This document shows positions 175 to 37,752 of a DNA stretch of 40,909 bases, in pieces. Within the stretch, counting starts at the first letter, position 1; each line of letters begins with the position of its first letter. Source of the stretch: an uncultured Clostridia bacterium (GTDB taxonomy: Bacteria > Bacillota > Clostridia > Oscillospirales > Ruminococcaceae); contig CANRLU010000007.1 in assembly GCA_947631535.1 (NCBI GenBank), positions 1 through 40,909 of the forward strand. The letters are read 5' to 3'. Both the position numbers and the translations under genes were made by a program. The notes beneath the pieces were generated by a model that saw only the letters and a program-made list of their open reading frames with translations, was not told where the DNA came from and searched no databases.

Positions 175-1185
175 ATGGTAGTTATTTTAAAGCAAAACCC
201 CGATAAGGCCCAGCTGAAGAGCCTTATGACATGGCTCGAGTCGAAGGGCGTGAGCGTTCATACCACAGTGGGTGCACAGCAGACCATTCTCGGCCTTGTG
301 GGCGACACTTCGGTGATAGATATTGACCTCATCTCGGCGCTCGACATAGTCGAAGCCGTCCGCAGGGTGCAGGAGCCCTATAAGAGCGCCAACCGCAAAT
401 TCCACCCCGCAGATACCGTCGTTAAGGTCGGAAACGCCGAGATAGGCGGCGGGAGCCTCGCACTTATTGCCGGCCCGGGCTCGGTGGAGTCGCCGGAACA
501 GATATGCGCGCTCGCCGAAGAGCTTAAAAATGTCGGTGCGCAGATACTCTGGGGCGGGGCTTTCAAGTCGCGGACTTCGCCCTACTCCTTCCAAGGCCTT
601 CGGGGCGAGGGGATAAAATATCTCTGCGAGGCAAAAAGGACCTCGGGGCTGCCGATAGCCGCCGAGGTGACGGATATGTCGCAGCTCGGGCTGTTTGAAG
701 ACGTCGATATGCTTATAGTCGGCGGCAGGAATATGCAGAACTACGAGCTTTTAAAGGCTATAGGCGCGCTTAAAAAGCCGGTGCTTTTAAAGCGGGGAGT
801 TTCCTCTACCTATGAGGAGCTTCTGATGAGCGCCGAATACATAATGTCGGAGGGAAACGAAAACGTCGTTCTCTGCGAGAGGGGAATACGCACTTTTGAG
901 GACCAGACCGCCCACACGCTCGACATAACGGCGGTGCCGGTTTTAAAGCAGCTTTCCCATCTGCCGGTGATAGTCGATCCGAGCAACTCCTCGGGCAGGG
1001 CAAACCTTGTTGCGCCGCTCTCCGAGGCTTCCGTGGCGGCGGGGGCCGACGGCCTTATAATAGCCGTCCACAACGACCCCGCGCACGCTATGTGCGACGG
1101 CCCGCTTTCGCTTAAGCCCGACGCTTTCGGCGCGCTTTGCCGAAGGCTCGAAAAGATACGCGCCGCAGTGAGCAGCGCGGAATGA
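175..1185 (+). CDS. aroF: DAHP synthase family protein (AroF-type) with a degenerate metal site
   Basis: 336 residues, the usual length of Thermotoga-type (type I beta) 3-deoxy-7-phosphoheptulonate synthases, which condense PEP and erythrose 4-phosphate at the start of the shikimate pathway. Residues 1-70 form the ferredoxin-like regulatory domain and 80-330 the TIM barrel. Family signatures remain: GGAFK-RTSPYSFQG (128-141), GRNMQN (184-189), LLKRG (204-208), CERGIRTFE (234-242). However, the metal ligands known in Thermotoga (Cys102, His272, Glu298, Asp309) correspond here to Gly102, Asn271, Ala297 and Asp308, so three of four are lost. The usual Arg before GGAFK is Trp126 and KPRTS has become KSRTS. 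The reading frame is intact, so this looks like a maintained pseudoenzyme or a changed enzyme rather than a pseudogene. It sits directly before pheA. Confidence 0.85.
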   Translation: MVVILKQNPDKAQLKSLMTWLESKGVSVHTTVGAQQTILGLVGDTSVIDIDLISALDIVEAVRRVQEPYKSANRKFHPADTVVKVGNAEIGGGSLALIAGPGSVESPEQICALAEELKNVGAQILWGGAFKSRTSPYSFQGLRGEGIKYLCEAKRTSGLPIAAEVTDMSQLGLFEDVDMLIVGGRNMQNYELLKAIGALKKPVLLKRGVSSTYEELLMSAEYIMSEGNENVVLCERGIRTFEDQTAHTLDITAVPVLKQLSHLPVIVDPSNSSGRANLVAPLSEASVAAGADGLIIAVHNDPAHAMCDGPLSLKPDAFGALCRRLEKIRAAVSSAE

Positions 1186-1196
1186 CGGAGGATAAA

Positions 1197-2327
1197 ATGG
1201 AGCTTGACGAAATAAGAAACAGCATCGACGGCCTCGACCGCGAGCTTCTGCCGCTTATTTTAAAGAGAATGGAGCTTTCGGAGAAGGCTTCAGAAACATC
1301 GCTTTCGCCCGCCGAGATAAAAGAGCGCGAGCGCGAAATGCTCAGGTGGGCCGAAGAGCGCAGCGGCGATATGGAACCCTACATACACAGATTTTACAGC
1401 GCTCTTTTCGAACTCGGACGGGCATACCGCGAGTGCAAAAAACCCGTCGGGGCTAAAGTCAGGGCCGAGCTTAACGAGGCTCTCTCGAAAAACTGCGGAG
1501 AATTTCCGCAGACGGGCACCGTAGCCGTTCAGGGCGTTGAGGGAGCCTATGCCCAGATGGCGGCGGACAGAATGTTCCCGCGCGGAAACCTGATGTTCTT
1601 TAAGAGCTTTGAAGCGGTGTTCGACGCCGTCGAGAGTGGGCTTTGCCGCTTCGGGGTGGTGCCGATAGAAAACAGCTCGAACGGCTCCGTGAGGGCAAAC
1701 TATGAGCTTTTGAACCGCAAGAATTTAAGGATAGTCAGGAGTGAGCGGCTTTTTGTGAGCCACGAGCTTTTGGCGAAGCCGGGCGTAAAGCTCGAGGATA
1801 TCCGCGAGATACGCTCCCACGAGCAGGCGCTCGGGCAGTGCTCGGAGTTTATTAAGAGCCTCGGCAGCAGGGTGAAGGTTCAGCCCTGCCCCAACACGGC
1901 TATGGCGGCGGAACTCGCCGCAAGGAGCGAATTCGGAGACATCGCCGCGATAGCTTCACATTCGGCCTGCGAGCTTTACGGGCTCGTGCCGATAGCCACC
2001 CGAATCCAGAACAGCGACAACAACTACACCCGCTTTATCTGTCTCTCGAAAGACGCCGAGATATATCCCGGGGCCGACAGGATAAGCCTTATCCTTGCGC
2101 TGAAGCACCGCCCCGGCGCGCTCTACGAGATACTCGCGAAGCTCACCGCGCTCGAAATAAACCTTATAAAGCTCGAAAGCTGCCCGATAGTGGGGCAGGA
2201 CTTCCAGTTTATGTTCTTCTTCGAGATGCAGGGCTCCGTCCGCGACCCGAGAGTTGCGGCGATGCTCGAAAGCCTCGAGCAGACCTGCGAGAGCTTCAAG
2301 TTCCTCGGCAATTATTCGGAGGTATAA
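1197..2327 (+). CDS. pheA: Chorismate mutase/prephenate dehydratase (P-protein)
   Basis: 376 residues. An AroQ-type chorismate mutase domain (1-85) is followed by prephenate dehydratase (about 107-285) and an ACT domain (295-376); such P-proteins convert chorismate to phenylpyruvate for phenylalanine synthesis. ATG 1197 is chosen because GGAGG lies just upstream (1188-1192); in-frame ATG 1182 lacks such a site. The dehydratase keeps VPIENSSNGSV (155-165) and the catalytic NNYTRF (275-280). The mutase domain is unusual: the lysine-containing loop of the family is shortened and the conserved Ser/Gln of the last helix read Gly and Arg (FELGRAYRE). In the ACT domain the Phe-binding ESRP motif is ESCP (327-330). 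Follows the DAHP-synthase homologue closely and precedes bioY by two bases. Confidence 0.9.
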   Translation: MELDEIRNSIDGLDRELLPLILKRMELSEKASETSLSPAEIKEREREMLRWAEERSGDMEPYIHRFYSALFELGRAYRECKKPVGAKVRAELNEALSKNCGEFPQTGTVAVQGVEGAYAQMAADRMFPRGNLMFFKSFEAVFDAVESGLCRFGVVPIENSSNGSVRANYELLNRKNLRIVRSERLFVSHELLAKPGVKLEDIREIRSHEQALGQCSEFIKSLGSRVKVQPCPNTAMAAELAARSEFGDIAAIASHSACELYGLVPIATRIQNSDNNYTRFICLSKDAEIYPGADRISLILALKHRPGALYEILAKLTALEINLIKLESCPIVGQDFQFMFFFEMQGSVRDPRVAAMLESLEQTCESFKFLGNYSEV

Positions 2328-4505: not shown

Positions 4506-5825
4506 TTATTCCTGCGCCTCAGATATCACAAAGGTGGTCACGCTCTCGCGCGGTAAAACGTAGGTGAATCCGTCGCCGTCAAAGGCGATGTTGCCGGTGC
4601 GCTCAAGGTTGCGCAAAGCGTCGGTCGTGTAGGCCTCGATGTATCCTATGCTGCCTGCGTCACTAATGTTGAACTCCTGCGCGTAGTCGGCAAACGAGTG
4701 GTTAATCGCAACGATCACCGTCTTCCCGTCGCCCTTGTAGGCCGAGACGCTTACCCCGTAGGCAGGGGACTCGTCGGCATCTACCCTTATGTACCCCGGG
4801 CGGACGAATTTTGAATAATGCGCCATCATATAGCCGCGCTTCGAGATGCTTCCGTCCTCTTTCATCGGCCCGTAGAAGCGGCGGATATACCACCACACAT
4901 ATGCCTGAATGTTGCCGGTAACGAGACCGTCGTGCATATTCACGGCGACCTCTATCGCTTCGGGCCAGGTGTCGGCGTCGCTCGAGCTGTTCGGAACGTA
5001 GACCTCAGTCATCCAGAGCTCCTTGCCCTCGCACTTTTCCTCAAAGAGCGGATATTCCATATCCTTTTTCTGCGTGCCGTAGAAGTGCGTGCCGAATACG
5101 TCCACCTTCGAGAGCGCGTCCTCGTCGTTGATGATCGCGTTGTAAAAGTCTTTGCGGTACTGGAAAGCCTCGGGCGACATTATCCGGCAGTCGATCTCGT
5201 CGGAGTAGTTGAGAATAAAGTCCATTATCTCCTCGGTAGACCACCAGGTCCATTCGTCGGCAAAGTCGGGCTCGTTCTGAATGGATATCGCATAAAGCTC
5301 TATGCCGTTGTCGCGCATAAATGTCACGAAATCGTTGAGATGCTGCGCGTATTCGGCGTATTTGTCATGCCTTAAGCGCTGGGCGTTGGCGTTGCCGTTG
5401 TGGTTGAACTTCTCGGTCATATCCGCGGGCGGGTTCCAAGGGGAAGCGAATATCAGAGCTCCCTGCTCCTGCGCATATTTTGCCGTCTCGACCTCCTTAG
5501 CCCAGTTGTCTCTGTTCGGATCGACGTGTATCCGAAGTATCGTGAAGCCGAGCTGACCGTCGCCGTTTAAAAACGCCGTCTCGCGCTGCTCCTGCGTGAG
5601 GTCGTCTATCCAGACGGGGTAGTTTATTCCGCCGAAGCCCTTTATCGTCTGATGCTCAGTATTAAGATCGACCGTCACGGTCTTCGACTTCTGTGCGCCC
5701 TCGAGGTCGGGGACGAAAAGCTCGTCGTCCCTTATCTCCGCCTGCTCGCCGGCGCAGCCGAAAAGCGTAAACATAAGCGCAAAAGCGACCGCAAGCGCCG
5801 CGGCTCTTAAAAATATCTTTTTCAT
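4506..5825 (-). CDS. GH30 family glycoside hydrolase lipoprotein (glucuronoxylanase-like)
   Basis: 439 residues from ATG 5825 (GGAGGA upstream). Residues 1-24 are a lipoprotein signal ending in LFGC, so the enzyme is anchored outside the membrane. The catalytic barrel starts at GFGGINYPVWIDDL (63-76); AISIQNEPD gives the proposed acid/base Glu185 and LWMTEVYVP the nucleophile Glu274. The segment WWYIRRFYGP (311-320) and KFVRPGYIRVDA resembles GH30 subfamily 8 xylanases that need glucuronic acid side chains, where an arginine contacts the acid. The remaining C-terminal part forms the side beta domain; no carbohydrate-binding module is seen. It is the only glycoside hydrolase here, with no sugar transporter beside it. 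Family is firm, subfamily likely. Confidence 0.88.
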   Translation of the reverse strand: MKKIFLRAAALAVAFALMFTLFGCAGEQAEIRDDELFVPDLEGAQKSKTVTVDLNTEHQTIKGFGGINYPVWIDDLTQEQRETAFLNGDGQLGFTILRIHVDPNRDNWAKEVETAKYAQEQGALIFASPWNPPADMTEKFNHNGNANAQRLRHDKYAEYAQHLNDFVTFMRDNGIELYAISIQNEPDFADEWTWWSTEEIMDFILNYSDEIDCRIMSPEAFQYRKDFYNAIINDEDALSKVDVFGTHFYGTQKKDMEYPLFEEKCEGKELWMTEVYVPNSSSDADTWPEAIEVAVNMHDGLVTGNIQAYVWWYIRRFYGPMKEDGSISKRGYMMAHYSKFVRPGYIRVDADESPAYGVSVSAYKGDGKTVIVAINHSFADYAQEFNISDAGSIGYIEAYTTDALRNLERTGNIAFDGDGFTYVLPRESVTTFVISEAQE

Positions 5826-5863
5826 GATATATCCTCCGTTGTGTTCCGTATAAATATGTATCC

Positions 5864-5923
5864 ATTTTAACATAGCCGCTCACTCTTTGCAAGCACAGGT
5901 TAGCAATATGACAAATTGCAAGC
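5864..5923 (-). promoter_or_regulatory. Promoter of the GH30 gene with TTGCAAGC repeats
   Basis: Minus-strand -10 TAAAAT (5864-5869) and -35 TTGCAA (5887-5892) are 17 bases apart. The octamer TTGCAAGC occurs at 5887-5894, over the -35, and again at 5916-5923. The repeats are 29 bases apart, so a regulator that binds both would cover the -35. Operator function is inference. Confidence 0.55.
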
Positions 5924-21646: not shown

Positions 21647-21722
21647 CGGGGTGTAGCGCAGCTGGCAGCGCGCCTGCTTTGGGAGCAGGATGTCGGGGGT
21701 TCAAATCCCTTCACTCCGACCA
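21647..21722 (+). tRNA. tRNA-Pro (anticodon TGG)
   Basis: 76 bases including an encoded CCA. Acceptor CGGGGTG pairs with CACTCCG; the D arm is GCGC-AGCTGGCA-GCGC; the anticodon arm is CCTGC-TTTGGGA-GCAGG with anticodon TGG; the T loop is TTCAAAT, followed by discriminator A. Its last 21 bases are repeated at 22185-22205. Confidence 0.97.
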
Positions 21723-37354: not shown

Positions 37355-37709
37355 GCGAGTAAGCCATACGGCAGCGGGCATCGGTAATACCGGTGAATGA
37401 GGAAAGTCCGAGCATCACAGAGCAGGGTAGCTGCTAACGGCAGCCGAGGGCGACCTTAGGGAAAGTGCAACAGAAAATTACCGCCTCCGGCACTGTCGGG
37501 GGTAAGGATGAAAAGGCGAGGCAAGAGCTCACCGAGGTGCGGGGGACCGCTCCGTCGTGTAAACCCTACCCGATGCAACACCGATTGGTTCGGCATGCTT
37601 TAACGCCTGCTCGGCGGGCGTGCCGTTGAAGGTGGCTTGAGCTGCGCGGCGACGCACAGCGTAGATAGATTGCCGTACACGACAAAACTCGGCTTATAGG
37701 CTTAGTCGC
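37355..37709 (+). ncRNA. rnpB: RNase P RNA
   Basis: About 355 bases. The ends pair (GCGAGTAAGCC with GGCTTAGTCGC). Universal landmarks are GAGGAAAGTCCG (37401-37412), ACAGAAA (37470-37476), and near the 3' end AGATAGATTGCCG and CGACAAAACTCGGCTTATAG. It is the catalytic RNA that trims the 5' ends of tRNAs. It has its own promoter, and lies between a repeat and a lipoprotein gene. Ends are approximate by a few bases. Confidence 0.96.
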
Positions 37710-37752
37710 AATTTAAAATATTATCCCGTGAATACAAGAGGGTTTGATACAA

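Follow-up and report, generated by a model that had tools for sequence, protein, structure and literature searches.

The window, that is the whole stretch of DNA analysed here, covers 40,909 nt of contig CANRLU010000007.1 (assembly GCA_947631535.1) from an uncultured Clostridia bacterium of the Ruminococcaceae. It carries two adjacent genes, aroF* and pheA*, with 11 bases between the stop codon of the first and the ATG of the second. The genes and their parts are as follows:

175..1185, plus strand: aroF*, an ORF of 336 aa whose product is homologous to type I-beta DAHP synthases but lacks three of the four metal ligands
175..372, plus strand: ferredoxin-like (FL) sensor domain of aroF*, residues 1-66 (PF18152, 70 bits)
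373..1152, plus strand: barrel domain of aroF*, residues 67-326, catalytic in relatives (PF00793, 214 bits)
1187..1191, plus strand: GGAGG, a sequence like a ribosome-binding site, ahead of pheA*
1197..2327, plus strand: pheA*, encoding a chorismate mutase (CM)-prephenate dehydratase-ACT protein (PF01817 and PF00800 above cut-off)
1197..1439, plus strand: CM*, the CM domain of PheA*, with altered catalytic residues and a shortened H1-H2 loop
1521..2057, plus strand: prephenate dehydratase domain of PheA* (PF00800), with the motif NNYTRF intact

What kind of protein does aroF* encode? Both its sequence and its fold are those of a type I-beta DAHP synthase, FL plus barrel. In a profile search it scores 423 bits against NF006421 (cut-off 335), and it aligns to the Thermotoga maritima DAHP synthase 1rzm with an E-value of 5e-92 (HMMER), 4grs serving as second reference. 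The AlphaFold2 model, FL plus barrel with a mean pLDDT of 88, finds its best PDB matches in the same two structures, 4grs and 1rzm, and KDO8P synthase models score far under cut-off. The T. maritima enzyme (1rzm, 1vr6) shares with aroF* the domain order, the fold, 44% identity over the whole length and most of the residues that contact substrate. It differs in that aroF* has lost three of the four metal ligands and Arg126, and in that the genome of aroF* holds a second DAHP synthase.

The loss of the metal site had been called from the letters of the window, and it holds up. In the alignments to 1rzm and 4grs, the Thermotoga ligands Cys102, His272, Glu298 and Asp309 fall on Gly102, Asn271, Ala297 and Asp308 of aroF*, with AGPGS paired to AGPCS, DPSNS to DPSHS and IIAVH to the E-V-H motif. 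The codons are those originally read, and the same alignments bear out the two further changes that had been pointed out, Trp in place of the Arg before GGAFK and KSRTS in place of KPRTS:

478..480, plus strand: codon ggc, Gly102, replacing the ligand Cys102
550..552, plus strand: codon tgg, Trp126, replacing the PEP-contact Arg
568..570, plus strand: codon tcg, Ser132, replacing Pro (KPRT to KSRT)
985..987, plus strand: codon aac, Asn271, replacing the ligand His
1063..1065, plus strand: codon gcc, Ala297, replacing the ligand Glu
1096..1098, plus strand: codon gac, Asp308, the sole ligand retained

Copies in which the Cys, His and Glu ligands are missing are referred to here as dead, and those with the Cys/His/Glu/Asp set (CHED) as live. 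An alignment of 154 rows was assembled, with 49 dead rows (14 genome copies and 35 database proteins; 42 distinct sequences) and 105 live CHED rows (20 genome copies and 85 database proteins). A misalignment of the ligands is ruled out by the two agreeing PDB alignments together with this larger one. Position 102 is Gly in 49/49 dead rows and Cys in 105/105 live rows, Ser132 is found in every dead row, and position 126 is Trp in 47 of the 49 and Met in the other two. The His and Glu positions vary from copy to copy: the former reads Asn in 26 rows, Tyr in 15, Ser in three, Asp in two, Ile in two and Gly in one, and the latter Ala in 26, Thr in 18, Phe in two, Val in two and Ser in one. Asp308 is present throughout (49/49). 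The metal-independent KDO8P synthase, by fold matches a barrel of the same superfamily, also has a changed metal ligand, but there only the Cys differs and the enzyme is active; aroF* has lost His and Glu as well.

What is left of the substrate site? The homologous residues are listed as metal, PEP and E4P sites in the available text of PMC6362186. Of these contacts, Arg126 is lost and position 184 is variable in the dead rows, and most others are retained: Lys131, Arg133, Arg185, Lys206, Arg236, Arg239 and Asp308 are each found in 49/49, and position 134 is Thr in 40 rows and Ser in nine. Is aroF* then still a DAHP synthase which binds its metal in another way? The retained substrate contacts would fit, and both NCBIfam and Pfam still score the protein as DAHP synthase. 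However, three ligands and a PEP-contact Arg are gone, and all reported DAHP synthases are metalloenzymes according to that same source (PMC6362186, available part), which leaves this explanation extremely unlikely.

The original prediction took relatives with normal ligands as a sign of sequence error or recent decay. Such relatives exist, but the loss belongs to one clade. The genus comprises 31 genomes with one type I-beta match each, 14 dead and 17 live with CHED. The G/N/A/D set, which it had been suggested to look for in close genomes, recurs in the two nearest ones (91-92% identity). In a tree of the 34 genome copies the dead ones form a single clade (support 100/100). A typA tree of 30 genomes, with 13 dead rows since G020 is missing, also brings them together, but with weak support (75/83). 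Among 149 genomes of the relatives set, dead copies are confined to the 14 of this genus. The four ligand positions were read at 176 loci, giving 151 CHED, 23 dead and two partial sets; no independent loss in other genera was found among 60 fetched type I-beta matches, all of which are CHED. Nine dead loci (L033-L040, L048) come from uncultured Clostridia of a 'Lapin' series, a name that we read as rabbit gut. Sequencing error and recent decay are ruled out by the clade-wide loss, the open frames and the low dN/dS.

How strongly is the protein kept? There is no internal stop in any of the 49 dead rows, and dN/dS is 0.052-0.156 over ten pairs (not all independent, and several near saturation at silent sites), so the earlier view that selection keeps the protein stands. 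The live copies give 0.029-0.051 (eight computable of nine pairs). The dead copies change faster than their live relatives and faster than pheA*, therefore the constraint on aroF* is partly relaxed, yet it is far from neutral. The relaxation is not spread evenly over the protein. Over six independent dead pairs, 30/396 sites differ in the FL domain and 300/1560 in the barrel, with FL the slower in 6/6; in eight live pairs the figures are 57/528 and 152/2080, with FL slower in 2/8. The interaction of domain (FL or barrel) with state (dead or live) has a Fisher P of 3.9e-8. It is thus the barrel, once catalytic, that has lost constraint, whereas the sensor domain has not; mainly for this reason we favour a regulatory reading of aroF*.

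The same rates bear on the aldolase with new chemistry that the original prediction had raised, taken here as an enzyme that would act on PEP, E4P or some other phosphate without a metal. Lys131, Arg133, Arg185, Lys206, Arg236 and Asp308 are invariant, and Gly102, Ser132 and Trp126 are fixed or nearly so. Live rows have 102 invariant barrel positions. Dead rows leave 63 of these unchanged, including all seven binders (those six and Arg239), which are retained above other barrel positions with P 0.03, a modest signal. Against a new aldolase chemistry stands the drift of the His and Glu positions within the clade; moreover, the relaxed part is the barrel and not the FL domain, and the PEP contact of Arg126 is lost. 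Because most of the PEP/E4P contacts apart from Arg126 persist, such an activity keeps a small probability, and we consider it unlikely.

The surroundings of the gene differ between the two groups of genomes. In 17/17 live stretches aroF, tyrA, aroB, aroA, aroC, pheA and aroEK form one run in this order, and pheA lies 4.2-4.8 kb behind aroF in all 17. In the dead genomes the native operon is reduced to aroF* and pheA*, with pheA* directly 3' of aroF* in 13/14 and a gap of about -8 to 71 bases (12 fetched stretches, by an approximate measure). The exception is G014, where the two genes lie on different contigs (aroF* at L157, contig C35) and aroF* is still open; the adjacency is therefore not obligatory. 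Is aroF* a residual gene in slow decay, held only by its position before pheA*? Its place directly in front of pheA* in nearly all dead genomes and the relaxed barrel would agree with that. The unbroken frames, a dN/dS of at most 0.156, an FL domain under tighter constraint than the barrel and the open copy of G014, whose pheA* is elsewhere, all speak against it, and we consider slow decay very unlikely. Of the other features near these genes, a BioY-type transporter gene sits directly behind pheA* (2330-2878); most of the dead genomes, but not every one, have it close to pheA*. No RNA leader was detected near either this operon or the second one described below, the only hits at gathering threshold in eight sources being RNase P and tRNAs; the window itself has a Class A bacterial RNase P RNA at 37356-37712 and a tRNA at 21647-21719.

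If aroF* no longer makes DAHP, where does it come from in these cells? The original prediction had proposed looking for a second, complete DAHP synthase of the aroF type. A second enzyme is indeed encoded in the genome of the window, but it is of another type, I-alpha (AroG). An AroG match is present in 13/14 dead and 0/17 live genomes of the genus, and type II DAHP synthases are ruled out as rescuers, with none in the 31. The original reaction is thus covered by another predicted enzyme in 13 of the 14 dead genomes, as is expected where the old copy has become a regulatory pseudoenzyme. The dead genome without an AroG match, G007, is 86% complete and also lacks a match to AroC, so its assembly may miss the operon. 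AroG closes a second aro operon with the order CM-aroB fusion, aroC, aroEK, aroQ, aroA, tyrA, aroG (in L183, which is contig C55 of G000), found in 13/14 dead genomes: on one contig in 12, with single genes missed by ORF picking in some, and in pieces in G020. Two of its products matter here:

L183, 6502-7794: fusion of chorismate mutase and AroB (3-dehydroquinate synthase), heading the second operon
L183, 12699-13727: type I-alpha AroG

The second-operon aroC matches of G022:C9, G015:C1 and G004:C2 are each listed with one internal stop, which may come from an error in the sequence, from the end of the match or from decay.

The CM of the fusion retains the canonical residues in 12 aligned sequences. 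In other families of the order, pheA lies directly before a separate aroB in 7/11 loci read (in the other 4/11 no pheA was identified at that place, or the genes are apart), and the fusion CM is closer to the CMs of those pheA genes (mean 42%, 84 pairs) than to the native live CMs (29%, 240 pairs). It looks, by these comparisons, as if the fusion CM derives from a neighbouring-family pheA that lost its dehydratase part. We infer that the second operon came by transfer, because it is absent from the 17 live genomes, and that the two sides divided the work: the incoming operon lost its dehydratase as its CM was fused to AroB, and on the native side the dehydratase stayed while catalysis by CM and DAHP synthase was lost. 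Acquisition of the second operon probably made both old activities redundant. The presence of AroG alone does not cause the loss, as AroG and a CHED aroF occur together in genomes from five other genera (G040, G060, G062, G070 and G072).

Could aroF* be a regulatory subunit of this AroG, lending it the FL sensor? The two go together in the dead genomes of the genus and AroG is missing from the live ones. The alignment of AroG with E. coli AroF (6agm) begins at AroF residue 13, and AroG is five residues shorter ahead of the QGNP motif, in the stretch where E. coli AroG and AroF have their feedback site; feedback control of AroG may thus differ from that of E. coli AroF, and the site may even be lacking. 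However, AroG matches occur in 37/149 genomes of the relatives set, and AroG does not need aroF*, because 24 of these genomes have it without a dead copy. The neighbour of aroF* is pheA* and not aroG, the rate correlation of FL with AroG is weaker than that with CM* (partial r 0.27, P 0.10), and we know of no hetero-oligomer of type I-alpha and type I-beta DAHP synthases. A role as subunit of AroG is accordingly an unlikely but not negligible explanation.

The protein next door is itself altered. Among the 47 PheA* rows (at least 77% identity), 46 have a CM domain, and in all 46 Gln88 is replaced by Arg (codon 1428-1430 in the window) and Asp48 by Ile or Val. Lys39 is absent in 42/46, the Lys of the other four perhaps being misaligned. 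Arg11, Arg28, Arg51 and Glu52 are retained in 46/46. The 108 other rows have Lys39 in 107 and Gln88 in 107. Scores against CM_2 reflect this, at 26-40 bits for CM* versus 49-77 for the other copies. Elsewhere in the protein, the NNYTRF dehydratase motif is present in 47/47 rows, the ACT motifs are retained (PF01842 scores 21.4 bits in pheA*, below its cut-off of 27), and the AlphaFold2 model (pLDDT 88) has three N-terminal helices as in CM and its best PDB matches among prephenate dehydratases. The CM of Mycobacterium tuberculosis, which carries Arg where the conserved Lys would be, depends on its DAHP synthase to be highly active (PMC7762937, available text). Taken with this precedent, the residue changes imply that CM* may be dead, or else rewired and dependent on a partner. 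Inter-enzyme allostery between DAHP synthase and CM involves a compromised chorismate mutase partner, and CM*, judged by its residues, would be one.

Do aroF* and CM* evolve together? Once typA is accounted for, the distances of FL and CM* are still correlated (partial r 0.52, permutation P 0.005), an exploratory result in that the pair was chosen after viewing 21 values. Taken as a whole protein, aroF* shows no correlation of rates with CM* (partial 0.04), against 0.61 for an unrelated neighbour gene. Rates over whole proteins were accordingly set aside as uninformative on a link of aroF* to PheA* or AroG, the unrelated neighbour being equal or better.

What, then, does aroF* do? A whole clade lacks the catalytic residues and is nevertheless under purifying selection, as would be expected of a regulatory pseudoenzyme. 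Our best explanation, to which we give a little less than an even chance, is that aroF* is a DAHP synthase homologue without a metal site, acting as an aromatic-amino-acid-sensing regulatory subunit with the adjacent PheA* as its predicted target. By analogy with T. maritima, where Phe or Tyr on the FL domain limits access to the active site (PMC5526877, available text), the FL domain of aroF* would still bind Phe or Tyr. The protein would meet PheA* at CM*, by a contact of the kind made between DAHP synthases and CMs in M. tuberculosis and in the Bacillus/Listeria fusions, and through this contact the effector would tune PheA*. A more far-reaching version is possible, though we lean against it: after takeover by the second operon, the DAHP synthase and the CM of PheA, both non-catalytic, would now form an allosteric pair in which FL senses Phe/Tyr and the altered CM switches PheA. 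Several points weigh against a sensor for PheA*. An extra one is not obviously needed, because PheA* has its own ACT motifs; AroG, too, co-occurs with aroF*; the genes are split in G014; and the nil whole-protein correlation and the partly relaxed constraint do not favour it either. The original prediction had offered a pseudoenzyme that regulates either a true DAHP synthase or the neighbouring chorismate mutase. Its pseudoenzyme half is strengthened by the clade-wide ligand loss, the purifying selection and the other DAHP synthase of the genome. Its regulatory half gains indirectly from the slower sensor, and takes another shape now that the adjacent CM domain is itself altered and a second operon would supply both catalytic steps.

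Known systems offer parts of this arrangement. In the MtDS-MtCM pair of M. tuberculosis, as in most CM* rows, the CM lacks the conserved Lys (PMC7762937, available text), and aroF*, encoded beside CM*, may be its partner as MtDS is that of MtCM; here, unlike there, the DAHP synthase half is type I-beta without a metal site, CM* is fused to a dehydratase, and the complex is a predicted one. In the DAHP synthase-CM fusions of Bacillus, Listeria and Geobacillus, a DAHP synthase of type I-beta is coupled with a CM that is weak or regulatory (PMC5526877, available text), but in them the CM regulates an active DAHP synthase, and in the present case the DAHP synthase homologue is the proposed regulator. 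Regulatory subunits derived from enzymes are already known: HisZ, a relative of an enzyme of other function, serves ATP phosphoribosyltransferase in an amino-acid pathway (PMC2923632, available text). It belongs to a family unrelated to aroF*, for which the regulator role is predicted. A search of open-licence papers found no DAHP synthase pseudoenzyme or catalytically inactive paralog, and no regulatory subunit derived from a DAHP synthase was found among the matches listed (open-licence papers, by the beginnings of their abstracts).

Why would this matter? Aromatic amino-acid synthesis begins with DAHP synthase, which is also one of its main points of control and whose many allosteric schemes are under active study. 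If the more far-reaching version is right, this would be inter-enzyme allostery in which the entry enzyme of the pathway is left as a pure sensor, and aroF* would be, within the reach of the literature searches, the first pseudoenzyme among the DAHP synthases. A single genus also offers a natural before and after, with 17 species that have CHED and the full operon versus 14 stripped of the metal site in which the sensor is held tighter than the barrel. This comparison separates sensing from catalysis, and the target of the sensor is testable with two adjacent genes. For annotation there is a practical side: NF006421, above its cut-off, gives the name DAHP synthase to a probable non-enzyme across the clade, which would mislead metabolic models. 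Elsewhere in the window, on the minus strand, 4506-5873 encodes a protein close to the glucuronoarabinoxylan endo-xylanase XynC (604 bits, under the model cut-off of 650).
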